NCBI GenBank assembly: GCA_028284765.1
Contig: JANQRA010000002.1
Coordinates: 540,645 to 604,644, forward strand
Source of the DNA: Acidimicrobiia bacterium
GTDB lineage: Bacteria > Actinomycetota > Acidimicrobiia > Spongiisociales > ZC4RG35
Length of the DNA stretch: 64,000 nucleotides
Direction of reading: 5' to 3'
Within the stretch, counting starts at the first letter, position 1. The number at the start of each line of letters is the position of its first letter. The notes beneath the pieces were generated by a model that was given only the letters and a program-made list of their open reading frames with translations, made no database searches and had not been told where the DNA came from. This document shows, piece by piece, positions 38,803 to 55,660 of the stretch. The position numbers and the translations under genes were made by a program.

Positions 38803-38891
38803 AACAACCTCCTCTGATTCGCTTCGCAGGGTGATCTTGCGCCATCTGAGGTCCGAGCGGTAGGGCCAACCAGCCCCAGACTCGCCCACCA

Positions 38892-38930
38892 CCCGAGGGG
38901 GTTCATCTCACGGGGGATGCCGTGCCCCCC
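38892..38930 (+). promoter_or_regulatory. MalT-like regulon element P1
   Basis: CCCGAGGGGGTTCATC followed by GGGGGATGC (38912-38920) and CCCCCC ending at 38930; 53 nt before the 2TM gene at 38984. One of eight copies (see findings). Confidence 0.65.
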
Positions 38931-38983
38931 AGCCGGCTGTAAATGTCAACGTCGAAGCCCGCACACCACGAAAGGAGAATGCA

Positions 38984-39241
38984 GTGACTGAAGAACAGCG
39001 CCAGTGGGCGATCAGGCGAATCGAAGCCAAGCGAGGATTCTGGATCCACCTCGTGGTGTACATCACAGTCAACGCTCTGCTGGTCGGAATCTGGGCAACA
39101 GCGTCGGACGACTTCTTCTGGCCTATCTGGCCGATCCTCGGATGGGGCATCGGGCTCGTCAGCCATGCCATTGCAGTGATGGTGGGCCCGCCGCAGATCA
39201 GCGAGCAGCGGATCAACCGAGAACTCGAACGTCGATCTTGA
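38984..39241 (+). CDS. 2TM-domain small membrane protein
   Basis: 85 residues, GTG behind AAAGGAG. PF13239 pattern: 'QRQWAIRRIEAKRGFWIHLV' in part, 'NALLVGIWA', and 'FFWPIWPILGWGIGLVSHAI', with tail 'SEQRINRELERRS'. Closely similar to the protein at 46117; both are preceded by the same regulatory element. Likely a small membrane or signalling accessory; function unknown. Confidence 0.82.
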   Translation: MTEEQRQWAIRRIEAKRGFWIHLVVYITVNALLVGIWATASDDFFWPIWPILGWGIGLVSHAIAVMVGPPQISEQRINRELERRS

Positions 39242-39301
39242 TCGCAAGGTACGAAAACGAGCTGGCCGATGGTGGTTGAGACGCCGACGGCCTAGGACTT
39301 C

Positions 39302-39337
39302 GAGACATCGCTCCGAGGCAACCTCGGGCGATGTCTC
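39302..39337. terminator. Compound hairpin terminator between convergent genes
   Basis: Outer stem GAGACATCGC (39302-39311) / GCGATGTCTC (39328-39337) and inner stem CCGAGG (39313-39318) / CCTCGG (39322-39327) with loop CAA: 16 bp in total with one bulge. Serves the 2TM gene and the convergent DUF4760-like gene. Confidence 0.72.
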
Positions 39338-39392
39338 CGACCAAGGTCAGGCGTTGAACCAGCCGAACGGACTGGAAGCATCCACAAGGTGT

Positions 39393-39902
39393 TCATGCCG
39401 CGGGGTTGGGAGCATCAACACTCGCGATCCGATTTGCGAGATACTCGAAGCCGCTCCACAGGCGCGGCTGACCAGACCTGGTTCTCGCCTCATTGATTAC
39501 CGGCACATACTTGTTCCACGTCACAATGGCCGAAGACATCAGCACATCCCCCAAGAGATCGATGTCGATTACGCCCTTCTTCAGCAACAGTCCGAGGACG
39601 TCGAACCGCTGCCAGATGAACATGTGCTCCGAGTACCGATCGAGATTGCTTTCCGGCCCGTATCTGGCGTAGTAGTCGGCGAGGTCGTTCCAGTCATCGA
39701 CGAAAGCAACTCTGTAGAAGAGCCGCTGAAACTCTGGGCTTGCGACGCTCTCCGAGATATCCAGAAACAGCTGGATCTGTCTCGACTCGAGTTGGAGGAG
39801 CTGCGTCTTGTTGACGAGCGACAGGTAGCGCACGTAGTACGAGATGGAAGCAATTAGACCCGCACCGGTGAGGAGACCGACGGCCAGCTCTGGGGATTCC
39901 AT
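39393..39902 (-). CDS. DUF4760-like membrane protein
   Basis: 169 residues from ATG 39902 behind AAGGAGG. One N-terminal TM helix (~5-25), then a helical cytoplasmic domain: 'TQLLQLESRQIQLFLDISE', 'FQRLFYRVAFVDDWNDLADYY', 'FDVLGLLLKKGVIDIDLLGD' in part, 'WNKYVPVINEAR'. The arrangement fits DUF4760; function unknown. Preceded on its strand by element P2, so it is a likely member of the MalT-like regulon although it lies on the opposite strand. Confidence 0.65.
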   Translation of the reverse strand: MESPELAVGLLTGAGLIASISYYVRYLSLVNKTQLLQLESRQIQLFLDISESVASPEFQRLFYRVAFVDDWNDLADYYARYGPESNLDRYSEHMFIWQRFDVLGLLLKKGVIDIDLLGDVLMSSAIVTWNKYVPVINEARTRSGQPRLWSGFEYLANRIASVDAPNPAA

Positions 39903-39980
39903 GTTTCGCCTCCTTCGGACGCGGCCTGAAGCGGCCCTGGGCAAGCCGCTGTTTCCGAGATTCGAATATCTCCGACGGGC

Positions 39981-40023
39981 GGGGGGTCCTGACACCCCCT
40001 CGAGCGAAACCACCCAAGGGGGG
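39981..40023 (-). promoter_or_regulatory. MalT-like regulon element P2 (minus strand)
   Basis: Read on the minus strand: CCCCCCTTGGGTGGTTTCG, then GGGGGTGTCAGG and CCCCCC. 78 nt before the DUF4760-like gene. The only copy on the minus strand, matching the only minus-strand target. Confidence 0.6.
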
Positions 40024-40182
40024 CCGCGGCAGGCCGGGCGAATGCCGGCCGAAGCCGGAGATGTGGCCGGACGCTGACTACAAGTCGGGTCAAAGGGTCT
40101 TCCGACCCTGGCACTCCAAGCGCGCCTCGACCAATGATGAGGTATCCGGAGGAAACGGAAACTCCGGACGTGAGGAGCCCAC

Positions 40183-42462
40183 GTGGCCGGCTTACTTCAA
40201 GCACCCAACCAATCAACCTCAGACCAGGTTGCCTACACGGGTGTTCGGAGGCCACTGGTGGAGACAAAGATCGACCCGCCAATCGCGTCGCCATGGCTGA
40301 TCTCTCGAGACGACCTCGTCGATCGTCTGGATCGAGCTGAAAGCAAGCTCTCTCTCATCTGTGCCCCTGCTGGCTGGGGGAAAACATCGCTTATCACCGC
40401 CTGGTTAGCCGCTCGGCCAGGCACACATCTTGCATTCGTCCATCTGGAAGCCGACGACGACGACTCAGCTTCATTCTGGGCATACGTCTTGGCGGCTTTG
40501 AGCGCACTCGACCTAGGTCTCGAAATCCCTGGCGACCCAGAACAGCTACTGGGCACCCCGGGAATTGACCCCATGCTTCGAATTGTGCCGCAGCTGCTCA
40601 ACGAGTTTCGCTCGCTGGAGACATCACTGGTCTTAGTGCTGGACGACTACCACGTGCTTTCGGAGCAACAGATCCACAACTCCGTCCACTATCTCATCGA
40701 GCACCTCCCCCAGAGTGTCAGGGTCGCAATCTCGACACGCGTTGATCCTCCGCTCCCGTTGGGCCGGCTGCGCGCATCAGGTGAGATGATCGAGTTGCGG
40801 GCCAAGCAGCTTCGCCTCACGGCCGACGAAGCGGAACACCTCCTCCTGGATCGCTTTGGGCTGGAGTTGGACGCAAGCAGCATTGAGCTACTTTGCCGCC
40901 GCACAGAGGGATGGCCTGCTGGCATCCAGTTGGCTGGGCTGGCTCTTGAGGAAGAACCGGATCCAGCGGCGTTCGTACAGCATTTCGCTGGAGACGACCG
41001 CAATATTGCCGACTACCTGACGGGGGAGGTTCTCGAACGCCTTCCACCAGACATAGTCAGACTTCTGACCCGCACCTCTGTCCTCGAGCGCTTGAGCGGA
41101 CCGCTTTGCGATTCAGTCGCCGATGCAGAGGGGTCGGCCCAGATCCTCTCCGACCTGGAGCATCACAACCTTTTCTTGGTGCCTCTAGACCACCAACGTG
41201 AGTGGTATCGCTACCACCACCTCTTCGGAGAGTGGCTGCGCCACGAGCTCCGGAGGAGAGAGCCAGACGGTATTCAGGTGTTGCACTCGCGGGCCGCGGA
41301 CTGGCTAGAAGAACAGGGGTCTCTTGAGGCGGCAATCTCCCACGCACTTGCGGCCGGCGACGAAGAGCGAGCCGCCGAGATCATGGATCGCTACCTGGCG
41401 GACGGTGCTGCAGTGAACTGGACAGCTGTGTTTCGCTGGCTGGGTCGGCTCCCAATCGAAATCAAGGAACGGCATCCGCTGGTGGCTATCGCCCAAGTCA
41501 GATTGGCGTTCACGAAAGGAGACCTGCTTGGCGGCCGCCAGTGGCTGCCACGCGCTCGCAGGGCTCTCGCCGAAACAGCCCCCGAGATCAGACAACAAGC
41601 CGAGGTCACGGTGAGGCTTTTCACCGCATTGAGTGAGCTGGTTACGGGCGACATGGACCGCGCCCGCCGACTATTTACAGAGATCGCCGACGAGGAGCGC
41701 GAAGACGCTTCACAAACCTTCGCAATAGCTATTGGGTACGCCGGCACCGCGGCGTTCTGGGCCGCGGGCCCTCTTCAAGCAATGCCGGCCCTCAGCGAAG
41801 CAGTCGTTGCTCAGGAACGAACATCCCAGCCATACACCGGCGTCTCTGCCCTACTTGCGGCTGCCTACGCCGAGATCTCCGACTGGAGCGCAGCCGAGAC
41901 CACCGCGGCATCTGCTCTGGCGCTCCCGCCGCCGCAGGAGAGTCCTCTGTACCCATTCCAGATGCCCGCGCACTACGCCCTGGGACAAGTTCATTGCGCA
42001 AGAGGACGCTCAGAAGAGGGGGTTGCCGAACTCACAATCGGTCTCGAACAAGCGAGAGCCTGGGTAGAGCCGATCTTTGTCGCCTACGGGTGCCTGCTCC
42101 TCGCTGACTGCCTCGACGACTACAGCGAAAAGCGAGCGCTGATTCGGGAGGCTCGCCAGCTCATCTCAGATGGCAGAGGCAGAGGGCGGATCGGCGACCT
42201 GGTCGCTGCCGCCGAACGAAAACTGTCTCTACGTCAGCCGTCCCAGAGCACCAGCGGCACTGTGCACGTCCTCGCACTCACCAATCGGGAGAGGGATGTC
42301 TTGCGGTGGATGCGCAGTGAACTCTCTTTCGCCGAGATAGCGCGTGAGATGTATGTCTCCTACAACACGGTGAAGGGCCACGCTAAGTCGATTTATCGGA
42401 AACTGGGCGTCACCTCTAGGGCGGCAGCCGTCGAAACATCAGAGCAACTGGACCTTCTCTGA
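40183..42462 (+). CDS. MalT-like LuxR-family (LAL-type) transcriptional regulator
   Basis: 759 residues, GTG behind GAGGAG. N-terminal STAND/NB-ARC-like ATPase with Walker A 'APAGWGKTS' (61-69) and Walker B 'LVLVLDDYHVL' (D154, D155), winged-helix and TPR-like repeats (~360-670), and a C-terminal LuxR HTH (~693-755, 'LTNRERDVLRWM', 'YNTVKGHAKSIYRKLGV'). Such regulators activate transcription once ligand and ATP drive oligomerisation. It lies centrally in a block where eight promoters share a bipartite element containing GGGKGATG, reminiscent of the MalT box GGGGAKGAGG. It is the obvious candidate to bind it. No copy precedes its own gene. Confidence 0.88.
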   Translation: MAGLLQAPNQSTSDQVAYTGVRRPLVETKIDPPIASPWLISRDDLVDRLDRAESKLSLICAPAGWGKTSLITAWLAARPGTHLAFVHLEADDDDSASFWAYVLAALSALDLGLEIPGDPEQLLGTPGIDPMLRIVPQLLNEFRSLETSLVLVLDDYHVLSEQQIHNSVHYLIEHLPQSVRVAISTRVDPPLPLGRLRASGEMIELRAKQLRLTADEAEHLLLDRFGLELDASSIELLCRRTEGWPAGIQLAGLALEEEPDPAAFVQHFAGDDRNIADYLTGEVLERLPPDIVRLLTRTSVLERLSGPLCDSVADAEGSAQILSDLEHHNLFLVPLDHQREWYRYHHLFGEWLRHELRRREPDGIQVLHSRAADWLEEQGSLEAAISHALAAGDEERAAEIMDRYLADGAAVNWTAVFRWLGRLPIEIKERHPLVAIAQVRLAFTKGDLLGGRQWLPRARRALAETAPEIRQQAEVTVRLFTALSELVTGDMDRARRLFTEIADEEREDASQTFAIAIGYAGTAAFWAAGPLQAMPALSEAVVAQERTSQPYTGVSALLAAAYAEISDWSAAETTAASALALPPPQESPLYPFQMPAHYALGQVHCARGRSEEGVAELTIGLEQARAWVEPIFVAYGCLLLADCLDDYSEKRALIREARQLISDGRGRGRIGDLVAAAERKLSLRQPSQSTSGTVHVLALTNRERDVLRWMRSELSFAEIAREMYVSYNTVKGHAKSIYRKLGVTSRAAAVETSEQLDLL

Positions 42463-42481
42463 AGGTCTGCCGGGTGAGAAT

Positions 42482-42523
42482 CCCCCCTGGGTTGTCGACC
42501 CCGCGGGGGATGTCAGACCCCCC
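42482..42523 (+). promoter_or_regulatory. MalT-like regulon element P3
   Basis: CCCCCCTGGGTTGTCG, then GGGGGATGTCAG and CCCCCC; 35 nt before the ABC ATPase start. Confidence 0.65.
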
Positions 42524-42558
42524 TCCAACCCCTGATAGTTCAGTGCGGAGGGACTTCA

Positions 42559-43488
42559 ATGACACCAGCCCCAGCGATCGAGACGATTGACCTGACACGG
42601 TCGTTCAACGGCCTTGTTGCGGTCGACAAACTCAACCTCTCCGTCGAGCAAGGCGAGCTACTCGCACTGCTCGGGCCGAATGGTGCCGGGAAGACCACAG
42701 CAATAAAGATGCTGTGCTGCCTTCTGAAGCCCACGAACGGCACGGCCAAGATCATGGGCCACGACATCCAAGATGACCCTCTCGCTGTGAAGCAAGTCAT
42801 CGACACCTCGCCCCAAGAGACGGCTATTGCAGAACACCTCAATGCCAGAGAGAACCTGCGTCTGATCGCGGGACTACACGGAGTCGAATCTGCAGTAGCG
42901 AGGTCTAGGACGGAGGAGCTCTTGGAGATGATGGGAATCGCAGATCGGGCCGACGAGAAAGTGAAGAGATACTCGGGCGGGATGAAACGAAGGCTGAGTA
43001 TCGCTATGGCCCTCATCTCCGAGCCTCAGGTCATATTCCTGGACGAGCCAACACTAGGGCTCGACCCGCAATCGAGACGTGCGATTTGGGCACACATCCA
43101 AACCATGAAAGGCACGAAGACAATCCTTCATACCACTCACTACCTGGAGGAAGCTGACTCGCTTGCCGACCGAATCGCGATCATCGACGAAGGCAAAGTC
43201 GTCGCTCTGGGGACTCCTGAGGAGCTGAAACGGCGTGTCGCAGACGGCCAGGTACTTGTGGTCGAGGTCAGCAACATCGCTGAAAGCGCTGTGGACGCCC
43301 TTCGCATGTCCTTTCCCGACCTGTCGTGGACCGATGGACGTATCGAGATCAGGGACGAGAACGCCAACCTCTACGACGTCGCCGACATCCTTAGACCACA
43401 AGGCGTAGTCGTGGAGTCGAGTTTCAGAAAACGGATCAGCCTGGACGACGTTTTCCTCGAACTGACCGGAAAGAATCTAAGGGAATGA
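42559..43488 (+). CDS. ABC transporter ATP-binding protein, DrrA/daunorubicin-resistance type
   Basis: 309 residues. Walker A 'GPNGAGKT' (39-46), signature 'YSGGMKRRLSIA' (138-149), Walker B 'VIFLDEPTLGLDP' (158-170), H-loop 'LHTTHYLEEA', and a C-terminal DrrA-type extension ('VVVESSFRKRISLDDVFLELTG', in part). It powers export with the permease that follows (ATGA overlap). DrrA/B pairs export antibiotics or lipids such as PDIM in mycobacteria. Controlled by element P3. Confidence 0.9.
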   Translation: MTPAPAIETIDLTRSFNGLVAVDKLNLSVEQGELLALLGPNGAGKTTAIKMLCCLLKPTNGTAKIMGHDIQDDPLAVKQVIDTSPQETAIAEHLNARENLRLIAGLHGVESAVARSRTEELLEMMGIADRADEKVKRYSGGMKRRLSIAMALISEPQVIFLDEPTLGLDPQSRRAIWAHIQTMKGTKTILHTTHYLEEADSLADRIAIIDEGKVVALGTPEELKRRVADGQVLVVEVSNIAESAVDALRMSFPDLSWTDGRIEIRDENANLYDVADILRPQGVVVESSFRKRISLDDVFLELTGKNLRE

Positions 43489-44207
43489 GATCTCTCGCTC
43501 TCGCCAGGAAAAACTTCACGGAGGTCTGGCGCGACCCACTCTCGCTGGGTCTCACCATCGCCCTACCGATCGCGATGCTTCTAGTGCTTCAGCTGCTGTC
43601 GGACGTCGATGAGTTCTTCTCCGTTACATCTCTGATTCCGGGTGTGGTCCTGTTCGGCCTTGTCATGTTGATGTTCAGTGCGGCGCTGGCTTTGGCTCGC
43701 GACCGTGAAAGCGAGCTCTTCTCGCGGCTCTTGACCGCCCCCCTGCGGTCGAATGAGTTCGTTGCCGGCTATTCAGTCCCGTACCTCCCGGTTGCTGTGA
43801 TCCAGACGGTGGCGCTATTCGCGGTTGGGCTCACGATTGGCCTGGAAATCAACGGCAACCTCTTACTTGTCGTCTTGGTACTGGCAGCAATCAGCGGCAT
43901 GTACGTTGCCCTTGGGATGATCCTTGGCTCGGTCTTCACCACCAAGACCGTCTCGTTTCCCTACATCGGCATCCTTCTCCTCACAATCTTCGGCGGAGCC
44001 TGGATGGATCTCGAAGCAATCGGCGGCGGATTCCAAACCGTCGGGGATTGGTTCCCGTTCGCCCACGCTCTCGACGCGATCAGGAGCGTGTTGATCGATG
44101 GAGCCGACTTCACTGCAATAGCCAACGACTTCTGGTGGGTTCTCGGATACGCCGTTGTCACAGTGATCCTGGCCGTGATCATCTTCAAGCGCCGAATGGT
44201 GGGTTAG
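43485..44207 (+). CDS. ABC-2 type transporter permease
   Basis: 240 residues, six TM helices; overlaps the ATPase gene by ATGA. ABC-2 landmarks 'RDPLSLGLTIALPIAMLL', 'LARDRESELFSRLLTAPLRS' (in part) and 'FPFAHALDAIRSVL'. Forms the membrane part of a Drr-like exporter; two copies would pair with two ATPases. Substrate unknown; lipid or polyketide-type efflux is inferred from the neighbours. Confidence 0.87.
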   Translation: MRSLALARKNFTEVWRDPLSLGLTIALPIAMLLVLQLLSDVDEFFSVTSLIPGVVLFGLVMLMFSAALALARDRESELFSRLLTAPLRSNEFVAGYSVPYLPVAVIQTVALFAVGLTIGLEINGNLLLVVLVLAAISGMYVALGMILGSVFTTKTVSFPYIGILLLTIFGGAWMDLEAIGGGFQTVGDWFPFAHALDAIRSVLIDGADFTAIANDFWWVLGYAVVTVILAVIIFKRRMVG

Positions 44208-44221
44208 TACCTCGGCGCACA

Positions 44222-44263
44222 CCCCCCGGGGTTGTTTCCGAAAAGGGGGAGGCACGATCACCC
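44222..44263 (+). promoter_or_regulatory. MalT-like regulon element P4
   Basis: CCCCCCGGGGTTGTTTCCG, then GGGGGAGGC (44245-44253; the closest to a canonical MalT box) and a weak C-run; 83 nt before the gene at 44347. Confidence 0.62.
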
Positions 44264-44346
44264 GAAGCGAGACGACGATTCGACAATGAGATACCTCCGT
44301 CTAGGCACGAAAGTGACCGTGCCACCGGATTCGAGAGGGTGATTGC

Positions 44347-44592
44347 ATGGGGAAACGAGCGTTCAGGATCTGGGTGGCCGGGCGATTGGCCGATGACTTT
44401 GCCGAGTCAATCGATCCGAACCTCAACCAGGAGGAAACCGAAGCCAGTACCTCGCTCTCTGGGGAACTCGTAGATCAGGCACAGTTCCGTGGGCTCCTGG
44501 ACCGGCTGGGCAACCTAGGGATCGAGGTGATCCGCTTCGAGACCTATGGGTCGAGCTCCACAGAAGGCAGCCAGACGGAACCGTCTGGGTGA
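44347..44592 (+). CDS. Small conserved-type soluble protein, unknown
   Basis: 81 residues. 'FRIWVAGRLADDFAESI', then 'GELVDQAQFRGLLDRLGNLG', then 'IEVIRFETYG'. I recall short actinobacterial proteins with a similar 'GxLxDQAxLxGLLxRLxxLGxxI' core, of unknown function and frequently found with acyl/oxidoreductase genes. The last codons form an inverted repeat CAGACGG-AA-CCGTCTG (44573-44588). Cotranscribed with the overlapping MFS gene under P4. Confidence 0.65.
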   Translation: MGKRAFRIWVAGRLADDFAESIDPNLNQEETEASTSLSGELVDQAQFRGLLDRLGNLGIEVIRFETYGSSSTEGSQTEPSG

Positions 44593-46042
44593 CGCGGTGT
44601 CGCCAGGCGGCTCACGAGCGCATCCGGACAAACCTGCCGTCCAACTGGGGTCCAGGCCGGGGAGAGCGATTATCGCCGCTGCGGTACTCGGCTCCGCCCT
44701 TGCCTACATGAGCGACGACATGCTCAATGTGGCGTTGCCGTCGGTGTCGAGGGCCCTCGATGGAAGCATTTCAGAGATGCAATGGGTGGTGAACGGGTAC
44801 TTCGTGACGATGCTCTCGCTCATGCTCACGGCCGGTTCATTAGGCGATATTCGTGGCCACCGCCGCACCTTCCTGACGGGCCTCGGTGTCTTCTCGGTGG
44901 GCGCGGTTGTTGCCGCAGCGGCGGCGTCGATAGCGATGCTGGTTGCAGGACGTGCGATTCAAGGTGTGGGTGCAGCCTTGCTCCTGGCCTCGGGGCTTGC
45001 ACTAGTAAACGGTTCGTTCAGTGATCAAGAGCGGAGCCAGGCGGTTGGGGTCTACATGGGTGTCACAGCGGTCGCCACTGCGGCCGGCCCGGCCATCGGA
45101 GGGCTGCTTGTCGACGTCATGTCGTGGCGAGCGATCTTCATCGCTCCCCTTCTTTTTTCACTCGCGGCAGCCGTCGTGACCGTCCGCTCGGTGGCCGAAA
45201 CAGCGCCCAACCCGAACCGAGTTATCGACACCAAGGGAGCACTACTTGTCTTCTTGACCATCTCCTCCTTCAGCTTCGCCTTGATACGCGGACCGACGGG
45301 TTGGCTGCAGATTGAGGTGATCGCAGCCCTGACGGCGGCCGTGGCCGGTGGGTGGGCCTTCATCAGGTCCCAGCGGCTTGGGACCGATCCGATGCTCCCA
45401 CTTGCGTTGTTTCGCAAGCGGGCGTTCACCGGAGGCAACGCCGTCACTCTGATCTCGTTCATGGTCTCGGCGGGGGTCTTTCTGTTTGTCGTCGTACAAC
45501 TGCAGATCACCCTTGGTTACCGGCCGGCAGCTGCCGGTGCAGCCCTGGTCCCGCTCTATCTCATAATGCTGGTCGGTTCCCCCCTCGCCGGCCGCCTGGC
45601 CGACAGGATCGGGCCACGTATCCCGATCGTGGCCGGCAACCTCGTGCTCGGTGGCGGAATCTGGTGGCTGAGCGTCCTTGGCACGGACTCCCGTTTTCTC
45701 CCCGATGTCCTCCCCGGGCTGATCGTCCTAGCTCTGGGATTGGCAATGCTCGGCGCACCTCTCACTTCCGCCACCCTCAGCGCAGTTGGTGAACATCAGC
45801 AAGGAGTCGCCTCGGGTGTCAACAACACAGTGGGGCAGCTCGCCGGTCTGCTCATGATCGTGGTACTCCCGGCGGTGGCCGGCCTCTCAGGACATGCACT
45901 TCATGGCCCGGAATTCGCTGACGGCTTTATGAGCGCCATGAGATTCTGCGCAGCACTTTGCCTGGTGGCGGCAGTCATTGCCGCTTTCGCGTTCAGGTCG
46001 GCCCGCCCGACTCACCTCAAGACCCCCTGGGGGGTTCACTGA
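44546..46042 (+). CDS. MFS exporter, DHA2 (EmrB/QacA-like, 14 TM)
   Basis: 498 residues from ATG 44546; GTG 44597, after the small gene's stop, is an alternative. MFS motifs 'GSLGDIRGHRR' (motif A), 'RAIQGVGAALLLASGLALV' in part (motif B/C region), 'GPAIGGLLVD', and 'LAGRLADRIGPRI'. About 14 helices as in DHA2 drug exporters. 'YMSDDMLNVALPSVSRAL' is the typical TM1 region. Drug or lipid efflux by proton antiport; second exporter in this block after the ABC pair. Confidence 0.85.
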   Translation: MGRAPQKAARRNRLGDAVSPGGSRAHPDKPAVQLGSRPGRAIIAAAVLGSALAYMSDDMLNVALPSVSRALDGSISEMQWVVNGYFVTMLSLMLTAGSLGDIRGHRRTFLTGLGVFSVGAVVAAAAASIAMLVAGRAIQGVGAALLLASGLALVNGSFSDQERSQAVGVYMGVTAVATAAGPAIGGLLVDVMSWRAIFIAPLLFSLAAAVVTVRSVAETAPNPNRVIDTKGALLVFLTISSFSFALIRGPTGWLQIEVIAALTAAVAGGWAFIRSQRLGTDPMLPLALFRKRAFTGGNAVTLISFMVSAGVFLFVVVQLQITLGYRPAAAGAALVPLYLIMLVGSPLAGRLADRIGPRIPIVAGNLVLGGGIWWLSVLGTDSRFLPDVLPGLIVLALGLAMLGAPLTSATLSAVGEHQQGVASGVNNTVGQLAGLLMIVVLPAVAGLSGHALHGPEFADGFMSAMRFCAALCLVAAVIAAFAFRSARPTHLKTPWGVH

Positions 46043-46063
46043 CCGGGGGATGCATCGCCCCCC
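46023..46063 (+). promoter_or_regulatory. MalT-like regulon element P5
   Basis: CCCCCTGGGGGGTTCACT, then GGGGGATGCATCG and CCCCCC; 53 nt before the 2TM gene. It overlaps the end of the MFS gene. Confidence 0.65.
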
Positions 46064-46116
46064 GGCGCGACCGGACAATTCCCAATGCAAGGAACTCGTC
46101 AGAGAAAGGACAAGCA

Positions 46117-46389
46117 ATGACTGACGAGCAACGTCAATGGGCAATCAACCGGATCCGCGCCAAGCGTGCATTCTGGGTACACCTGGTCATGTTCGTGGCC
46201 GTGAACGCTCTGTTGGTGGGCATCTGGGCCGTCACAACGGCCGGCTACTTCTGGCCGATTTGGCCCATGCTCGGATGGAGTATCGGTCTCGTCGGCCACG
46301 CAGTGAGCGTCTTCATCGCACCCATGGATATCAGTGAACAGCGAATCGATCGCGAGCTGCGAGCAGGTGGGACCGGGTCGGCAAGCTAG
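46117..46389 (+). CDS. 2TM-domain small membrane protein
   Basis: 90 residues, ATG behind AAAGGAC. Near copy of the protein at 38984: 'EQRQWAINRIRAKRAFWVHL' in part, 'NALLVGIWAV', 'YFWPIWPMLGWSIGLVGHAV', tail 'SEQRIDREL'. Both copies follow the same regulatory element, suggesting a duplicated gene kept in one regulon. Function unknown. Confidence 0.82.
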   Translation: MTDEQRQWAINRIRAKRAFWVHLVMFVAVNALLVGIWAVTTAGYFWPIWPMLGWSIGLVGHAVSVFIAPMDISEQRIDRELRAGGTGSAS

Positions 46390-46430
46390 CTGCGTCCCTC
46401 CAAACGGGCTCGACCACTCCACCCAAGACT

Positions 46431-46468
46431 CCATGGGGGTATCGGACGGAGGGTGAATCTGACCCTAC
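46431..46468 (+). promoter_or_regulatory. MalT-like regulon element P6
   Basis: CCATGGGGGTATCG, then GGGTGAATC and a short ACCC; the most degenerate copy, but spacing is kept. 67 nt before the acyltransferase gene. Confidence 0.5.
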
Positions 46469-46535
46469 AACTGCGACCGAGCACCGGAGTCAACGATACG
46501 ACCAATCGGATCCCCACCGAGTTCGGAGGAATCCA

Positions 46536-47990: not shown

Positions 47991-48114
47991 GAGGACACAA
48001 CGGCGAGCGGGGAGCAATACCCAACACGCTTCCTGACCCCGTCATCGCCGCAGGCCCAAACGTCAGGGACTCGTCGGAGCAAGGCCGGAACCTCAGCGGC
48101 AGGTGCAACCGAGA

Positions 48115-48156
48115 CCCCCCTGGGGGTATCGAAGAGAGGGTGATGCCTAACCCCCC
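48115..48156 (+). promoter_or_regulatory. MalT-like regulon element P7
   Basis: CCCCCCTGGGGGTATCG, then GGGTGATGC (48138-48146) and CCCCCC; 53 nt before the oxidoreductase start at 48210. Clearest full-length copy. Confidence 0.68.
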
Positions 48157-48209
48157 TCTGCTGAGTGACCATTCGAGTGGTGAGAACAGCTGATGAGGAA
48201 GGACTGCAA

Positions 48210-49742
48210 GTGACCGACACGCAAGACCACCAAGCCGTAGTGATCGGAGCGGGTCTCGGGGGGCTGACTTGTGGGGCGCTTCTGGCCAAGCACGGTGTAC
48301 CAGTGACGATCGTCGAACAACACAGCAAGCCTGGTGGCTTCGCGACGTCGTTCGGACGGGCAGAAGGCAGGTTCCTATTCGAAGTCTCCCTGCACGGGAC
48401 TTCGATCAACGACAACGCTGTTGCCAGGGTCCTTGAGGACCTCGGCGTCCTGGACAAGATCGAACTCGTGCAACTGCCCGAGATCTACCGCCTGAAGACA
48501 CCCGATTTCGAGATCTCGGTTCCCCAACGCGACCCAGACGCATACATCGACGTGCTGACCAAGCACTTCCCCGATGAAGAAGACGGAATCCGGGGCTTCG
48601 TGCAGCACATGGTGGGTATCGCCGACGAGGGTGACCGGTTCAACAAGTTGAAGGGAGAGTTCGACCTGAGGATGTTCCCCGTCGAGTTCCCGACGTTGTG
48701 GGCAATCCGAGACAAAACGCTTGCTGACATGCTCGACGGCCACGTCGGTGACCCGTCACTCAAAGAAGCCCTCTCAGGTCTCTGGAGCTACTACGGGCTG
48801 CCGCCGTCGCGACTCTCAGCTTTCGTCTACGCCAACCGAACGGGCGACTACGTCAGGAACGGGTCCTATTACATCAAGCCGCGTTCGCAGGCTCTGAGCG
48901 ATGCGCTTGCCGAAGTCGTCGAAGGATCCGGCGACCAGATCATCTACGAAACCTCAGCCGAAGAGATCTTGGTCGCTGACGGTGCCGTCACTGGTGTCCG
49001 ACTCTCCGACGGGCAGGTTCTCCCGGCCACTGCCGTGGTCAGCAACGCCAGCGCGATAACCACGATGACGAAGCTGCTGCCCGACAGCGTTCTCCCGCCT
49101 GAATACCTGGAAAGGATCTCGACCTCGCCTCCGAGTGTCTCAAACTTCATCGTCTGGCTCGGCCTCAACACCGAATTGCGGGGCCGGGTGGACGGGTACA
49201 GCACGCACGTCACGACTGGGGCCGGCCCCGAGGCTGAATACGAGGCCAGCATGAACGGTGATATCGGACGGGTCGGGTTCAGTGTGACTGTCTACGACAA
49301 TGCTTTCGAGGGCTACTCACGGCCCGGCACATCCACAGTGATGCTGTTCACACCGAGCGGGTGGGAACCCTGGAAGAGGTTCCAGAGCGACTACATCGGT
49401 GGCCAGAAACAGGCCTACGACGAACAGAAAGCACGTTGGAGCGAAGTTCTCATTCGGCGGGCGGAAGAGACAGTGATCCCGGGTCTCTCCTCAATGATCG
49501 AAATCGAGGAGTCGGCGTCGCCACTCACCAACTGGGCATTCACTGCCAACACCCAAGGTGCGATCTACGGCTTTGAGCAGTCGATGGAAAACGCATATGT
49601 GACCAGGGTTCAGAATGAGACCCCGGTCGAGGGCTTATACCTGGCCGGCGCTTGGGGGAATCCAGGTGGCGGATACGGAGGTGCCATCAGCGGCGGAGCT
49701 GCAGCCTTCGCCGACCTGACCCATTCCTGGACCCAGAAGTGA
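48210..49742 (+). CDS. FAD-dependent oxidoreductase, CrtI/phytoene desaturase-like
   Basis: 510 residues from GTG 48210 (GAGGAAGG upstream). Rossmann motif 'VVIGAGLGGLTCGALLAKHG' (G13-x-G15-x2-G18), 'PGGFATSF' and a C-terminal FAD-closing 'LYLAGAWGNPGGGYGGAISGG' (in part), as in CrtI, retinol saturase-like and isomerase proteins. Desaturates or isomerises a polyene/lipid substrate. Operon head: followed at 17 nt by the saccharopine-dehydrogenase-like gene. Confidence 0.83.
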   Translation: MTDTQDHQAVVIGAGLGGLTCGALLAKHGVPVTIVEQHSKPGGFATSFGRAEGRFLFEVSLHGTSINDNAVARVLEDLGVLDKIELVQLPEIYRLKTPDFEISVPQRDPDAYIDVLTKHFPDEEDGIRGFVQHMVGIADEGDRFNKLKGEFDLRMFPVEFPTLWAIRDKTLADMLDGHVGDPSLKEALSGLWSYYGLPPSRLSAFVYANRTGDYVRNGSYYIKPRSQALSDALAEVVEGSGDQIIYETSAEEILVADGAVTGVRLSDGQVLPATAVVSNASAITTMTKLLPDSVLPPEYLERISTSPPSVSNFIVWLGLNTELRGRVDGYSTHVTTGAGPEAEYEASMNGDIGRVGFSVTVYDNAFEGYSRPGTSTVMLFTPSGWEPWKRFQSDYIGGQKQAYDEQKARWSEVLIRRAEETVIPGLSSMIEIEESASPLTNWAFTANTQGAIYGFEQSMENAYVTRVQNETPVEGLYLAGAWGNPGGGYGGAISGGAAAFADLTHSWTQK

Positions 49743-49759
49743 TCAACGGAGGATCAGCC

Positions 49760-51046
49760 ATGCGAAGTGACACCGAATTCGATCTTGTCCTCTGGGGAGC
49801 TACCGGCTTCACCGGGCGGCTTGCCGCTGAGAAGCTGGCTGCGCGTATCGGCGGTCGAACGGATCTCCGTTGGGCGATCGGGGGCCGCGACAAGGCAGAA
49901 CTCGAGGTTTTGCGATCCTCCCTCGGCGCTGATGCGGCAGACGTCCCCACCATCATCGGGGACAGCCTCGACCCGGCATCCATGGAAGCGTTGGCAGCCC
50001 GGACAAGAGTGGTGTGCTCAACCGTCGGGCCCTACGCCATGTACGGCTCTGACCTGGTTGCTGCCTGTGCGCAGGCCGGTACCCACTACTGCGACCTGGC
50101 GGCCGAACCCCACTGGATTCGGAAGATGATGGACACCCACGAAGCCAAAGCGGTCGAGAGTGGCGCCCGAATCGTTCACTCCTGTGGCATGGACTCCATC
50201 CCGTCGGACGTAGGGGTGTTCCTGCTGCAACAACGCGCCGCAGAGCTCTACGGGAAGCCCTGTTCACAGGTCAGGATGAGGGTGACTGAGATGCGTGGGG
50301 GTTTCAGTGGCGGAACCGCCGCCAGCCTTCTCCATGGGACGTCAGCCGGACGAGAAGATCCGACGATCGGGCGTGCGATGACCGAGCCGTACTACCTGGC
50401 TCCGGACGGGCGCCGTCAAGGTCCCGATGAACCAGATGACATGAGGTCGGTCGAGGTTGAGTACGACGAAGATCTACAGGTATGGACGAAGCCCTTCTTC
50501 ATGGGGCCCATGAACTCGAAGATCGTCCGACGAACAAATGCGCTCCTCGGCTATCCCTATGGCGAGGACTTTCGATACGACGAAGCTCGGGCTGTTGCCG
50601 ACGGGGTTTCGGGCCGATTCAAGGCGAAGGCCGAAGCTCTGGGTTATGTGGCCTTCGTCAAGGCCGTGGGGTTTCCTCCCACCAGGGCGCTGTTGAAGAA
50701 GTACGTGCTACCTGCTTCGGGAGAGGGTCCGGACCGAGCCACGCGAGAGTCCGGCCAATGGAAGGTCGTCCTCATCGGCAAGTTGGACGACGGGACCACG
50801 CTGAAGATGCTCGTGACCGGGAAAGGAGACCCGGCAACCGATTCCACTACACGCATGCTCACGGAATCAGCGCTTTGCCTTGCTGATGAGGAAGAGAAGA
50901 TTCCTGTGGGCGGTGGTTCATGGACTCCTGCCGCAGCGATGGGCGACCTGTTGCTGGATCGGCTGACCGCCCATGCGGGAATGAGCTTTGAGTTCGAGCC
51001 GATCGCACCGGTGGCAGGCATGGGCGAAGTGGCCCTGAGTGATTGA
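49760..51046 (+). CDS. Saccharopine dehydrogenase-like / trans-acting enoyl reductase family protein
   Basis: 428 residues from ATG 49760 behind GGAGG. N-terminal Rossmann 'LVLWGATGFTGRLAAEKL' and 'VCSTVGPYAMYG', 'HYCDLAAEPHWI', 'IVHSCGMDSIPSDVGVFLL' (in part). This matches the Rv2449c/Rv2953 type; Rv2953 is the trans-acting enoyl reductase of PDIM/phenolglycolipid synthesis. NADPH-dependent reduction of an acyl substrate is likely. Together with the Drr-like ABC pair and PapA-like protein it evokes an exported complex lipid pathway. Confidence 0.85.
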   Translation: MRSDTEFDLVLWGATGFTGRLAAEKLAARIGGRTDLRWAIGGRDKAELEVLRSSLGADAADVPTIIGDSLDPASMEALAARTRVVCSTVGPYAMYGSDLVAACAQAGTHYCDLAAEPHWIRKMMDTHEAKAVESGARIVHSCGMDSIPSDVGVFLLQQRAAELYGKPCSQVRMRVTEMRGGFSGGTAASLLHGTSAGREDPTIGRAMTEPYYLAPDGRRQGPDEPDDMRSVEVEYDEDLQVWTKPFFMGPMNSKIVRRTNALLGYPYGEDFRYDEARAVADGVSGRFKAKAEALGYVAFVKAVGFPPTRALLKKYVLPASGEGPDRATRESGQWKVVLIGKLDDGTTLKMLVTGKGDPATDSTTRMLTESALCLADEEEKIPVGGGSWTPAAAMGDLLLDRLTAHAGMSFEFEPIAPVAGMGEVALSD

Positions 51047-51065
51047 ACAGGAGAACAGAAAGATC

Positions 51066-51476
51066 GTGAATCAGCTATCGACCACACCAGTCAGCATCCG
51101 AACGCAGTTGGCGCTGCTGTGGGTATGCCATTTCATCTTGTGGATCTTCGGGGACATGTTCACCTTGCTCCAAGGTATGGGCGAACCCACAGACAGCACT
51201 GCCGTTCAACTCCTCGCACCCACTACGGCCATCGTGCTAACACTGATGGTGTTGCTCAACGCCACCGGCAAACCACAACTCGCCCGGTGGGCAAACCTGG
51301 GTGTCGCCCCGGTCTATCTGCTCTTTGACCTTGTTTTCTTCGTCGACGCCACCGAGGCTTGGGAGTACTACATCGGGGTCTTCTACGTTCTGTTCATCCT
51401 TCTAATCATCTGGCGCGCCTACACCTGGCGTCCGCATCAGGTGCGGCAACAGCCAGATACGGCCGAGGCCATTTAG
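51066..51476 (+). CDS. DUF6326-like four-helix membrane protein
   Basis: 136 residues from GTG 51066; a TTG at 51039 overlaps the previous gene. Four TM helices: 'LALLWVCHFILWIFGDMF' (polar residues C, H and D inside), 'APTTAIVLTLMVLL', 'LGVAPVYLLFDLVFF', and 'YYIGVFYVLFILLIIW'. DUF6326 pattern. Function unknown; operon member between reductase and SRPBCC genes. Confidence 0.7.
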   Translation: MNQLSTTPVSIRTQLALLWVCHFILWIFGDMFTLLQGMGEPTDSTAVQLLAPTTAIVLTLMVLLNATGKPQLARWANLGVAPVYLLFDLVFFVDATEAWEYYIGVFYVLFILLIIWRAYTWRPHQVRQQPDTAEAI

Positions 51477-51484
51477 GAGCTCGC

Positions 51485-51919
51485 ATGGATCTATCGGCCA
51501 CTATCGCTATTGATCGACCGGCTGCGGAGGTCTTTGAATACGCGGCGGACGTTTCTCATGACAGTCGATGGCGCACCGGGGTTGTCGAGGCAGGCTTCAC
51601 ATCGGACCCACCGCTACGAGTGGGCTCGACCGGGTTCGATCGGGGTGAGTCCAATGGTCGCGCCCTATCTGTGGATTGGACGGTCATTGATCTCGAGCCG
51701 GGCGCTTCGGTCAGGTGGCGCCTGGACTCGGGTCCAATTGTTGGGACAGGCGGCTACCTCTGCAAAGCAGAGAATGGACGGACACGTTTCACACTCGAAG
51801 CCTTGGTGACACCTGCCGGCTGGTATCGACTCATCGGCCCCATTTTCGCTCGGGTTGGTCGGCGTCAGAACGAAGCAGACGTAGCGAAGCTGAAGGCACT
51901 ACTCGAGAAGGGCCAATGA
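51485..51919 (+). CDS. SRPBCC (polyketide cyclase/dehydrase-like) protein
   Basis: 144 residues, ATG 51485 behind TTAGGAG. 'ATIAIDRPAAEVFEYAADVSHD' in part, 'WTVIDLEPGASVRWRLDSG' and helix 'IFARVGRRQNEADVAKL'. START-like fold binding hydrophobic ligand. 8 nt downstream of the previous gene. Could carry or modify the pathway's intermediate. Confidence 0.82.
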   Translation: MDLSATIAIDRPAAEVFEYAADVSHDSRWRTGVVEAGFTSDPPLRVGSTGFDRGESNGRALSVDWTVIDLEPGASVRWRLDSGPIVGTGGYLCKAENGRTRFTLEALVTPAGWYRLIGPIFARVGRRQNEADVAKLKALLEKGQ

Positions 51920-52043
51920 CCATGCGCGGCAGCCAGGTTCGACAGCGCGGCTCGGTTGCTGGTGGCGCAGTTGTGACGATGTCCTCTACCGGCCATCGGG
52001 CCCAACGAGGAAACTGTTGAAGGAGACGAAGTCGGAAGCGACG

Positions 52044-52772
52044 ATGACCAGCCGAAACATCACATACTCTGGCCGGGATCGGATCATCCGATCTCGACCT
52101 CCCGGCGTCGGCGTTTTGGCCGCGATCGAGGGGGTGGGCCTCTTCGCATGGAACCTCGTAGCGACGCCATTCATCGGGGAGAAACGTAGAAGGTGGGGCA
52201 CTATCGAAACCGAGGCGACTGACATGTTGCCCGGCGACGAGCTGGTACCCACGCCCAAGTGGTCATACACGATTGGGGTCGACGTCGAAGCTTCTCCCGA
52301 ACAGGTATGGCCCTGGATCGCTCAAATCGGACAGGGCCGCGGCGGGTTCTACTCCTATCAAACCCTTGAAAACATGGTCGGGTGCAGAATCACCAACACC
52401 AACGAGATCCTCCCCGAACACCAACATCCCGAGGTCGGGGGCGGCGTCCAACTGCATTGGGATGCGCCGCCGCTGCGGATTGAAATCGTAGAACCTCCCA
52501 ATGCACTCGTGCTCTTCGGATCACCGGCGGACATCGGCGACGGTGAGGTTTGGGGACTATCGACCTGGCAATTCATCGTCAGGGCTCGCGAAGACGGAGG
52601 TAGCCGCTTTTTGACGAGAGGCCTGTACGACCACGCACGGAACTGGAAGAGCCGTCTGATGTTCGGGCGCTTCCCGATGGAGGTGGTCACCTTTGTGATG
52701 AGCCGCAAGATGATGCTCGAGGTGAAGCGACTGGCCGAGAGAAGCATGACATCGCGACCGACGCCGGGCTGA
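52044..52772 (+). CDS. SRPBCC-family protein with N-terminal membrane segment
   Basis: 242 residues from ATG 52044 (in-frame TTG at 52017 also possible, but AAGGAG is at 52021). A hydrophobic segment (~20-45, 'GVLAAIEGVGLFAWNLVATPF') precedes an SRPBCC domain: 'DVEASPEQVWPWIAQIGQGRGGFY' in part, 'NALVLFGSP', 'GSRFLTRGLYDHAR'. Known actinobacterial family found with lipid genes; ligand unknown. Confidence 0.78.
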   Translation: MTSRNITYSGRDRIIRSRPPGVGVLAAIEGVGLFAWNLVATPFIGEKRRRWGTIETEATDMLPGDELVPTPKWSYTIGVDVEASPEQVWPWIAQIGQGRGGFYSYQTLENMVGCRITNTNEILPEHQHPEVGGGVQLHWDAPPLRIEIVEPPNALVLFGSPADIGDGEVWGLSTWQFIVRAREDGGSRFLTRGLYDHARNWKSRLMFGRFPMEVVTFVMSRKMMLEVKRLAERSMTSRPTPG

Positions 52773-52868
52773 TGAAAAAAGTGGAAAGCCAGCACTGGGG
52801 CCATTGAGCGGGGTCGCTTGAGCGGCTGTCCGGTGACGGTGCTGGCACCCAATAGAAAGGAACATGTA

Positions 52869-53231
52869 ATGAAGACTGACGAACTGATCGCCAAGGCGAC
52901 CGACACCATGACGGTTACGCGGGTCTACGGAGAGCCGTATCAGGAGAACGGTGTCACTTTGATTCCCGCGGCCTCGATCAAGGGAGGCTTCGGAGCTGGT
53001 GAAGGTGAAGGCGAAGGGACCGATGAAACTGGTTCGGGCTCCGGCCAAGGCGGCGGTGGTGGCGTCGCGGCGCGACCCGTTGGAGCCTTCAAGATCGACG
53101 GCGACAACGTCACATGGGTGCCCGCAGTCGACGTGACCCGCGTCGTTCTGATGGGTCAGCTCGTAGGAATCGTTGCGCTGCTCGTGGTCCGCTCGGTCCT
53201 GCGCAGGAAGGGAGCCCACGAGAACGCATGA
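52869..53231 (+). CDS. GerW/YtfJ-family sporulation-type protein
   Basis: 120 residues, ATG behind GAAAGGAAC. GerW (PF09579) features: 'RVYGEPYQENGVTLIPAASI', a glycine-rich loop (GGFGAGEGEGE...GGGGGVAARPVGAF), then 'VTWVPAVDVTRV' and a C-terminal helix. GerW affects spore germination in Bacillus; in non-sporulating actinobacteria the role is unknown. Same strand and spacing as the SRPBCC genes, so probably in the same transcript. Confidence 0.8.
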   Translation: MKTDELIAKATDTMTVTRVYGEPYQENGVTLIPAASIKGGFGAGEGEGEGTDETGSGSGQGGGGGVAARPVGAFKIDGDNVTWVPAVDVTRVVLMGQLVGIVALLVVRSVLRRKGAHENA

Positions 53232-53279
53232 CGGAACGCTCTCCTTCTTGGAGGTAGAGCGATGAGGAAGGCGGTGTAG

Positions 53280-53930
53280 ATGGCACGGACTGAGAGTGAG
53301 ATCCCGAAGCTCGACCTCCGTCGGCAGTTCAAGGAGTTCTACAAACCTTCGGCCAAGGAAGTAGCCCTGGTCGATGTCCCAGAGTTCCTGTTCGTCGCAT
53401 TGGACGGGACGGTCGGGGCCGGGGTGCGTCCCGGGGAGTCAGAGGACTTCAGCGAGGCGATGGGCGCCTTGTATGCAGTGGGCTATGGCCTCAAGTTCAT
53501 GTCGAAACTCCGAACCGAGGATCCGATCGACTACACCGTGATGCCGGTCGAGGGTCTGTGGTCAACCGAGTCCGGTAGCAAGTTCGAATTCGACTGGCGC
53601 GAGCCGTCGCTCTACACGCTCCTCATGATGCAGCCCGACCACATAACGCCGACGATGTACGAGCAAGCGGTATCTGAAGCCAGAGAGAAAGGCCCTTCAT
53701 CGGCGCTGGACGGCATGCGGCTCGAGCGTTGGCGCGAGGGGTTGTCTGTGCAAATCATGCACATCGGCCCATACGCTGATGAACCGGCCACTCTCGACAA
53801 GATGGAAGCATTCGCCGCAGAGAACGGGCATGAGTTCCACGGTCGACATCACGAGATCTACATCGGGAATCCAAACCGATCCAAGCCGGAGAACCTGAAG
53901 ACGGTTCTTCGCCATCCGGTTCGGGACTGA
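53280..53930 (+). CDS. GyrI-like small-molecule-binding domain protein
   Basis: 216 residues. 'FLFVALDGTVGAGVRPGESEDF' in part, 'YTVMPVEGLWS', 'LYTLLMMQPDHIT', 'VQIMHIGPYADEPATLDKM' and C-terminal 'HHEIYIGNPNRSKPENLKTVL' (in part). This is the GyrI-like/YdeI-type SHS2 fold found in BmrR ligand domains; binds hydrophobic or cationic compounds. End of the block; the next promoter (P8) starts a separate transcript. Confidence 0.84.
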   Translation: MARTESEIPKLDLRRQFKEFYKPSAKEVALVDVPEFLFVALDGTVGAGVRPGESEDFSEAMGALYAVGYGLKFMSKLRTEDPIDYTVMPVEGLWSTESGSKFEFDWREPSLYTLLMMQPDHITPTMYEQAVSEAREKGPSSALDGMRLERWREGLSVQIMHIGPYADEPATLDKMEAFAAENGHEFHGRHHEIYIGNPNRSKPENLKTVLRHPVRD

Positions 53931-53981
53931 CGAACCGATTTCTGAGGGACGCCGGGACAAGCCAGGGAACGGGCACCACAT

Positions 53982-54023
53982 CCCCCCGGGGTGGTTTCGA
54001 GCATGGGTGATGCTCCACCGCCC
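53982..54023 (+). promoter_or_regulatory. MalT-like regulon element P8
   Basis: CCCCCCGGGGTGGTTTCG, then GGGTGATGC (54005-54013) and CCGCCC; 62 nt before GTG 54086. Confidence 0.62.
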
Positions 54024-54085
54024 TTCCGAGATGAACCATCTCGGCAAGAGCAAGAGGAGAAGGGACGGACAATGACAGACGACAA

Positions 54086-54238
54086 GTGCCAGAGAAATAC
54101 GCAACTCGGTGCCGCTACATGACTTCCAGGGGCGAGTACCTGACTCTGGAGCGCAACTACGTCGACCGCAAGAGCAGCGGTATCACGGTGACGGATGACA
54201 AAGGGAAGCAGCTCACGCTTCGACAGCCGAGGAGTTAG
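54086..54238 (+). CDS. Very small protein downstream of P8; possible frameshift
   Basis: 50 residues from GTG 54086 (an internal ATG at 54119 gives 39). Sequence ends 'LTLERNYVDRKSSG', 'ITVTDDKGKQLTLRQ'. The ribosome-like AGGAG at 54055 points to ATG 54072, whose frame closes after 16 codons, so an indel between 54072 and 54085 would join them into one ~55-residue protein. Supported by the conserved promoter element rather than by homology. Not recognised. Confidence 0.4.
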   Translation: MPEKYATRCRYMTSRGEYLTLERNYVDRKSSGITVTDDKGKQLTLRQPRS

Positions 54239-54295
54239 TCCAGATGCCTGCACGAGTATTCCAGGTCGACTCTGTTCTCTTGAGACCCCTGTGGG

Positions 54296-55024: not shown

Positions 55025-55028
55025 CTTC

Positions 55029-55559: not shown

Positions 55560-55660
55560 GAAACCTGCTTCTTCTGCATCCTGACCTGACTCTGTAAGCC
55601 CGCGTGAGTTGACGTAAGAGAGCACCTCGTACAAAACGAGGCGGTCATGGCCACGATCTT

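Follow-up and report, generated by a model that had tools for sequence, protein, structure and literature searches.

LAL regulators have been called a poorly studied family (PMC3282765). The closest described system to the one presented here is MalT of Actinoplanes sp. SE50/110 (ACSP50_3915), which activates 40 of the 51 genes of its region and whose site, TCATCC and GGATGA separated by 5 nucleotides (nt), ends 34.4 +/- 1.0 nt before 17 start sites; the MalT core is given as GGA(T/G)GA (PMC7567727). We describe a locus in an Acidimicrobiia bacterium in which eight copies (P1 to P8) of one DNA element surround a gene for a MalT-like LAL protein. The locus lies in a stretch of 64,000 nt (the window; contig JANQRA010000002.1, positions 540,645 to 604,644) of a genome of 2.9 Mb in 23 contigs, numbered G000 in our comparison, where G-numbers denote genomes and L-numbers loci.

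We conclude, with a probability that we put at about 0.82, that these copies are the operator-promoters of one self-contained regulon, where the LAL protein from 40183-42462 would, on our prediction, bind DNA and bring in RNA polymerase. Comparison across genomes shows the arrangement of half-sites, a -10-like hexamer in phase with them, the co-occurrence of the element with LAL genes, its concentration near them and its placement before genes. A first-pass annotation of the window had proposed a MalT-like LAL regulon, and the comparative evidence favours that proposal, since in distant genera too the element accompanies the regulator and adjoins its gene. The element is probably the switch by which each such LAL turns on its own neighbourhood.

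Element and regulator in the window

The features concerned are the following, with positions counted from the first letter of the window.

38889..38930, plus strand: P1, with -10-like hexamer AAATGT (38941-38946), upstream of a 2TM-domain protein gene (38984; Pfam 2TM)
39981..40022, minus strand: P2, with -10-like hexamer GATATT (39965-39970), upstream of a DUF4760 gene (39902 downwards; Pfam DUF4760) and directed away from the LAL gene
40183..42462, plus strand: gene for the LAL (MalT-like) regulator, 759 amino acids, P-loop NTPase and C-terminal GerE/LuxR helix-turn-helix
42482..42523, plus strand: P3, with -10-like hexamer GATAGT (42534-42539), starting 19 nt past the LAL stop codon, upstream of DrrA/DrrB-type ABC transporter genes
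42559..44207, plus strand: genes for an ABC transporter ATPase (DrrA family) and an ABC-2 permease
44222..44263, plus strand: P4, with -10-like hexamer GACGAT (44274-44279), upstream of orf81 and a DHA2-like MFS gene
44347..44592, plus strand: orf81, 81 amino acids, its family matched by no Pfam or NCBIfam model in the members scanned
46022..46063, plus strand: P5, with -10-like hexamer GACAAT (46074-46079), upstream of a second 2TM protein gene (46117)
46428..46469, plus strand: P6, a weak copy with no in-phase -10-like hexamer, upstream of a PapA/condensation-domain acyltransferase gene (46536)
48115..48156, plus strand: P7, with -10-like hexamer GACCAT (48167-48172), upstream of a phytoene-desaturase-like FAD oxidoreductase gene, which is followed by a saccharopine-dehydrogenase-like gene
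53982..54023, plus strand: P8, with -10-like hexamer AACCAT (54034-54039), upstream of a 50-amino-acid frame (54086-54238, start picked by eye)
55029-55721: ECF sigma factor gene, directly after the block

All eight sites had been located in the first-pass annotation and were recovered at the same places and in the same orientations, seven as strong copies and one, P6, as a weak copy. Gene starts, reported there as 36-84 nt from each copy, lie 35-83 nt behind column 42 of the element by our measurement (the P8 start being set by eye). The shape given for the first part of the element, C5-6 N G3-6, does not suit P1 or P6. The element, which had been supposed to be bipartite, holds four half-sites and, in phase with them, a -10-like hexamer. 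The first-pass annotation had overlooked this hexamer and its fixed place, the fact that the symmetry is four-fold, the poor quality of P6 and the occurrence of the element in mycobacteria.

A 30-base consensus allowing up to 3 mismatches has 8 matches in the window, where 1.18 are expected from shuffled sequences, and none of 100 shuffles reached 8; these matches comprise six of the sites and two overlapping matches on the opposite strand, P2 and P6 being found by the matrix only. In leave-one-out scoring with the matrix, seven sites reach 24.6-36.2 bits and P6 reaches 8.2; P6 has degraded half-sites a and d and alone has no -10-like hexamer. Compared in pairs, the eight copies have a mean identity of 0.605 within the 42 element columns and 0.476 within the -10 columns; their flanks give 0.26-0.30, and random 42-mers 0.26. 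Because identity falls to background in the flanks, the copies are not parts of a longer repeat. Across the genome the 30-base form occurs at 8 places with up to 2 mismatches, 6 in the block and 2 elsewhere; the search with 3 mismatches is unspecific, since it gives 55 places against 19 in the backward control. The 57-base form, which includes the -10-like hexamer, is confined to the block at up to 2 mismatches genome-wide, in agreement with the earlier statement that no full copy lies elsewhere in the window; allowing 3 mismatches gives 8 places, 7 of them in the block and the eighth, with 3 mismatches, on another contig. As in an island of the Actinoplanes type, the motif therefore stands before many units round a LAL gene and is rare elsewhere.

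Relatives show the layout of the element, a fixed arrangement of TCMCCC, 0 or 1 nt, GGGKGA, then GGGKGATG, then TCMCCC. Its four half-sites share the consensus GGGKGA, a and d in minus and b and c in plus orientation, with a gap of 0 or 1 nt between a and b and 7 nt between c and d. Column counts were taken from 25 sites, 8 from the window and 17 from relatives with identical copies dropped; two sites of G108 are shifted by one base in this set relative to the scans. Columns 2, 4, 5 and 9 are invariant, and the five-base cores of the half-sites are conserved in 20-25 of the 25 sites per column, save for columns 3, 11, 27 and 39, which are ambiguous. Conservation is weaker at the sixth base of the half-site (column 1 mixed; G in 18/25 at column 13, A in 18/25 at column 29 and C in 23/25 at column 37). 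The hexamer [GA]ANNNT stands 10 nt behind half-site d, with G53 in 20, A54 in 23 and T58 in 23 of the 25 sites, and columns 30-35, the expected -35 position, show no TTGACA.

If the hexamer is the -10, half-site c would sit where a -35 hexamer would be and d inside the spacer; with T58 taken as -7, a and b would cover about -64 to -52, c about -41 to -36 and d about -28 to -23. Transcription would then depend on an activator, because there is no TTGACA-like -35. In the mechanism that we propose, the LAL protein, with ATP and an inducer, would form an oligomer over the four half-sites, and this oligomer would activate orf81 along with the neighbouring transport and lipid-type genes.

The assignment of the protein at 40183-42462 draws on several matches. 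Its GerE helix-turn-helix (PF00196, residues 698-750) scores 53.9 bits against a cut-off of 23.5, and phmmer aligns residues 25-400 with the E. coli MalT structure 8bob at E 1.7e-44 (155.6 bits). The P-loop A61-P-A-G-W-G-K67 and the motif D154-D-Y-H157 are invariant in 8 aligned homologues; the Pfam AAA_16 match is under its cut-off (26.0 against 32.6). With 323.4 bits the protein misses the NCBIfam MalT equivalog cut-off of 537 bits. Judged from its sequence it is a LAL regulator, and by NCBIfam it is not a MalT orthologue.

Spread of the element and the genes behind it

Among 149 genomes searched with the LAL protein, the window's own included, 20 have a match at E 1e-30 or better. The element is found on a LAL contig in G059, G126, G133 (twice), G108, G109 and G117, with fragments in G129, all of which have close LAL homologues; these homologues (42-52% identity) belong to other families, and the element again lies near the LAL gene and before the same types of gene. 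The distance from the LAL stop codon is at most 150 nt in 6 of 7 near-complete cases and about 4 kb in G109. Flanking scans found no element in the short flanks of five weaker LAL homologues (L045, L046, L047, L049 and L059) or of L048, a LAL fragment at a contig edge in G129.

Of the 138 genomes of the order, 9 have copies that deviate by 1 mismatch at most (G000, G059, G092, G104, G108, G109, G126, G129 and G133), and 8 of these 9 have a LAL at E 1e-30, a distant one in G104 (33%). The copy in G117 has 2 mismatches. In the other genomes of the order the only matches are those with 2-3 mismatches, which resemble chance (25 matches over the 138 genomes in the backward control). Genes behind the copies recur between genera: 2TM genes in G126, G133, G059 and G129; the orf81 family in G126, G133, G059, G129, G109 and G117; and a saccharopine-dehydrogenase-like gene in G108. 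Further recurring genes were recognised by eye from protein starts in pairs such as G104/G108, G126/G109 and G126/G092. In G448, from the wider phylum, a LAL gene (42% over residues 23-410) and a DrrA-like gene flank a copy, a placement that matches P3.

Within the window's own family, the best other LAL homologue among the genomes searched has 33-37% identity, close ones being found in other families. The LAL island of the window genome may have come in by transfer, or the family may have lost it on several occasions.

For loci beyond the order, a search with the single LAL sequence found no relative and an alignment-based search succeeded; its best 80 LAL loci were used, of more that exist, and the closest LAL relatives with named records are metagenome-assembled genomes of Acidimicrobiia. 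A matrix from 27 sites, applied at a threshold of 14 to these 80 loci (1.356 Mb), gave 76 matches, against none in reversed DNA. Of these, 16 fall in the six loci that contain training sites; the other 74 loci were chosen by LAL protein alone and contain 60 matches in 38 loci, with none in 36 and none in reversed DNA. In the same 74 loci the exact 12-bp palindrome occurs 168 times, counting both orientations, in 38 loci; if 1 mismatch is allowed there are 218 occurrences, and reversed DNA has none. After the exact palindrome, the start of GGRTGA falls at column 24 in 45 cases and at column 23 in 10 (other columns, 2 or fewer), and that of TCACCC at column 37 in 35 and at column 36 in 6 (others, 1 or fewer). 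Of the 70 cases that have a half-site at column 24, 35 have RANNNT beginning at column 53 (others, 4 or fewer).

The spacing also emerges from these non-training loci when letters are ignored and only the mutual similarity of the four half-sites is scored, to a maximum of 24 points. With a gap of 0 between a and b there are 58 sites at the true spacing for score 22, against 1-10 at 16 false spacings, and 105 against 19-51 for score 21. Loci without a matrix match, a group defined by the matrix itself, show no peak in a test of this kind, although real-looking sites occur in L196, L213 and L209. On a quick tree of 88 LAL proteins, some of them identical, presence of the element changes 11 times, against 29.7 for shuffled labels. 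All 10 rows of the window's branch, mostly training loci, have the element, as do 22 of 23 rows of a mycobacterial branch; in a branch with Chloroflexota and some Nocardioides it is found in 3 of 22 (Propionibacteriaceae, Nonomuraea and G448).

The mycobacterial form of the element is TCACCCGGGTGA-N11-GGRTGATG-N5-TCACCC. Twenty genomes reached through named loci all have a LAL homologue at E 1e-40; 16 have this form, at 78 places (backward control 0), 69 of which are in ten mycobacterial genomes, and 4 bear a LAL without it. The genus of Mycobacterium interjectum was then represented by 118 genomes, of which 21 have the element (backward control 0 in all 118). LAL matches reach E 1e-97 or better in 17 and E 1e-40 in 45 genomes; the stricter cut was set after the fact, at the gap before 8e-71. 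With this cut, the element occurs in 17 of 17 LAL-positive and 4 of 101 LAL-negative genomes (p 4e-17, a value that overstates independence because related species share history). These four LAL-negative genomes are G639 and G582 with 2 copies each, those of G582 lying beside a short LAL piece, and G612 and G626 with 1 each. The 15 genomes with long LAL frames carry 5-13 copies, and the two with short frames, G659 and G610, carry 2 each. In G582, G610 and G659 short or partial LAL frames coincide with just 2 copies of the element.

Distances were taken in 14 mycobacterial genomes, 8 of the 21 genus positives and 6 others, chosen so that each has a single such LAL and carries every copy on the same contig as it. 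None of the 103 copies, all counted, is farther than 35.5 kb from the LAL midpoint, a distance of 1.25% of the genome or less; the one-contig requirement favours nearness, yet contigs such as that of G533 span megabases. The 13 positives left out have two LALs (G540, G584, G627) or copies on several contigs (G541, G599, G602, G613), or are G582, G610, G612, G626, G639 and G659. Some mycobacterial copies (for example G533:C4:2152385) have TCATCC/GGATGA in both arms of the first palindrome, the half-site of Actinoplanes MalT; these paired variants look mostly like one site copied across related species.

Genes behind the copies in M. interjectum include an ECF sigma gene (L246:2639-3238), a DUF417 and a DUF326 gene, and an orf81 homologue that precedes an alcohol-dehydrogenase-like gene; two of the seven copies have no convincing gene behind them. 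An island may thus control a sigma factor. Island contents vary, LAL, element and often orf81 being constant. In the window, the block (37.4-54.2 kb) contains a DUF4389 gene, the two 2TM-domain genes, the DUF4760 gene on the minus strand, the DrrA/DrrB-type ABC genes, orf81, the DHA2-like MFS gene, the PapA/condensation-type acyltransferase, the phytoene-desaturase-like oxidoreductase and the saccharopine-dehydrogenase-like gene, together with an SRPBCC gene (PF10604) and YtfJ- and GyrI-like genes; a Pfam search gave no match for the proteins at 51066, 52017 and 54086. The DrrA/DrrB-type exporter, PapA-type acyltransferase and saccharopine-dehydrogenase-like gene in 42559-51046 are together reminiscent of mycobacterial complex-lipid loci. 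In 54296-55721 a minus-strand gene without a Pfam match adjoins the ECF sigma gene and is possibly its anti-sigma factor.

The orf81 family comprises 42 frames (2 of them repeats) in 98 loci by tblastn, mostly of 60-110 amino acids, in Actinomycetota and Chloroflexota, and a strict c + d pattern lies directly upstream of 14 of the 42. A homologue search gave 11 proteins, the query included, and none of the members scanned matched a Pfam or NCBIfam model. The family varies widely, with D43 and G58 invariant in 30 rows. The predicted fold of orf81 is beta-alpha-beta-beta-alpha-beta (pLDDT 85); a fold search with this model gave no match at E 0.001 or better, and among the 50 matches listed are chains of the Lrp/AsnC, ACT, acylphosphatase and PII-like types, with E values from 0.007 to 0.072. 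The model suggests a ferredoxin-like fold. From its co-occurrence with the regulator we would guess that the orf81-family protein is a candidate LAL partner.

Contrary observations and alternative explanations

Several observations weigh against the conclusion that the copies are operator-promoters of a LAL regulon, which is itself founded on sequence comparison. The start site is derived from the -10-like hexamer and nothing else, and the half-sites in the window are mostly G-runs, their reading as GGGKGA being taken from relatives. In the letter-free test the window's form with a 1-nt gap gives no clear peak in the 74 loci (8 against 0-7, and 52 against 18-50). The window form is rare across the phylum, occurring with up to 2 mismatches in 5 of 396 genomes: G000, G175, G448 and the chance-like G172 (a G/C run) and G519; G175 has no LAL on the 3.5-kb contig that carries its copy. 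G092 has a good copy and no LAL at E 1e-30, and in G612, G626 and G639, which carry 1-2 copies, there is no close LAL homologue. Finally, 19 of the 22 rows in the branch with Chloroflexota LALs have no element by this matrix. Absences outside Acidimicrobiia may be variants, because the matrix was trained on Acidimicrobiia, and the sites in L196, L213 and L209 suggest three such cases. By eye, the gene that the G092 copy (L119:9629) precedes is similar to a gene of G126.

Among other explanations, the one that survives best, although we consider it unlikely, is that the LAL protein binds these sites as a repressor, or that it employs part of the copies and P6 is non-functional. P6 is indeed weak, and half-site d falls between -35 and -10, a common place for repressors to bind. 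A negatively acting LAL, SCO6993, has also been reported, but the promoters here have no canonical -35, and the LAL precedents with mapped sites considered here, MalT and TpdR, activate (PMC7567727, PMC6099782).

We give still less credence to the idea that another local transcription factor, travelling with the LAL gene, binds the element, the LAL being only passenger or target. The strong association of element and LAL within one genus and the MalT-like half-site speak against it, and tblastn of those window proteins that were compared, which is not a gene-by-gene survey of the islands, revealed no other DNA-binding protein common to the mycobacterial islands. Other regulators are nonetheless found near some islands, among them the ECF sigma gene at 55029-55721 and one behind an M. 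interjectum element, and the copy in G092 would be accommodated. That the element is the promoter of an alternative sigma factor, working with no activator, is very improbable. It would account for a conserved upstream block at a fixed distance from a -10-like hexamer, but this block follows the LAL gene, and at 42 bp, with four half-sites in dyad symmetry, it is far larger than a sigma -35; moreover, relatives of the window's ECF gene occur in just a few relative loci (L071, L113, L114 and L160). An RNA element (leader hairpins) and mobile repeats were both rejected as extremely improbable, for although c and d can pair as a hairpin and the C- and G-runs repeat, an Rfam search of 38500-54400 found nothing up to E 1, the phased -10-like hexamer follows the block, which would thus not be transcribed from that promoter, and the identity of the copies is at background outside the block apart from the -10.

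Beyond activation by the LAL protein, a wider proposal may be made, which we regard as tentative and as having somewhat less than an even chance. The element would represent a new activator-dependent promoter class, in which an oligomeric LAL clamps four half-sites between -64 and -23, one of them in the -35/-10 spacer, and so takes over the role of -35 recognition; and it would be carried on portable islands, from Acidimicrobiia to mycobacteria and further actinobacterial classes, with a core of LAL gene, element and an ACT-like orf81-family protein that tunes the LAL. A rule of letters and spacing valid from Acidimicrobiia to mycobacteria would allow such LAL regulons to be read from DNA and would predict their promoters and start sites. 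The element also offers a way to study how a STAND-type activator engages RNA polymerase with a half-site in the promoter spacer, and points to a conserved small protein as candidate partner of these regulators.

Comparison with described LAL systems

The MalT proteins of E. coli and Klebsiella share with the present regulator a P-loop NTPase and a GerE helix-turn-helix, and their box, GGGGA(T/G)GAGG, has the same T/G ambiguity (PMC7567727, PMC6099782); their boxes are direct repeats, whereas the sites here are paired and inverted. A MalT orthologue would be marked by direct repeats of GGA(T/G)GA before mal genes; here we find inverted pairs of GGG(T/G)GA, and no maltose genes were recognised in the block. 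TpdR of Rhodococcus jostii TMP1 is likewise an actinobacterial LAL activator with repeats overlapping the -35, but these are 15-nt direct repeats of another sequence (TnnAAnnGCGGAnTC) (PMC6099782). The SARP-LAL regulators of Streptomyces are LAL-type, and repeated heptameric sites matter for them, in their case direct repeats; the protein has a SARP domain (PMC5930380).

A search with the mycobacterial palindrome and related words in the open-access literature returned no paper on the element among the matches listed, judged by title and the start of the abstract, and the accessible part of the Actinoplanes MalT account does not describe a layout of four half-sites with one in the spacer (PMC7567727). 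The first-pass annotation's description of the system as undescribed stands to the extent of the open-access literature, subscription papers being mostly outside that scope: the regulator family is known, and this operator architecture and its spread were not found there.

The nearest parallel is Actinoplanes MalT. Its site is a single palindrome with a 5-nt gap overlapping the -35; at our locus gaps and letters differ from TCATCC-5 nt-GGATGA, four half-sites would extend from about -64 to -23 with one of them in the spacer between -35 and -10, and the gene content is different. In both systems a LAL gene lies inside the region that it activates, or is predicted to activate, and one motif stands before many units and recurs in relatives. 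The half-site is GGATGA there and GGGKGA here, one base off the MalT core, which bears out the likeness to the MalT box noted in the first-pass annotation; and the motif that ends 34.4 nt before the start in Actinoplanes has its counterpart in half-site c, which would end 36 nt before the start predicted here. With a half-site differing by one base and with c at that distance, the element therefore fits activation by a LAL regulator.

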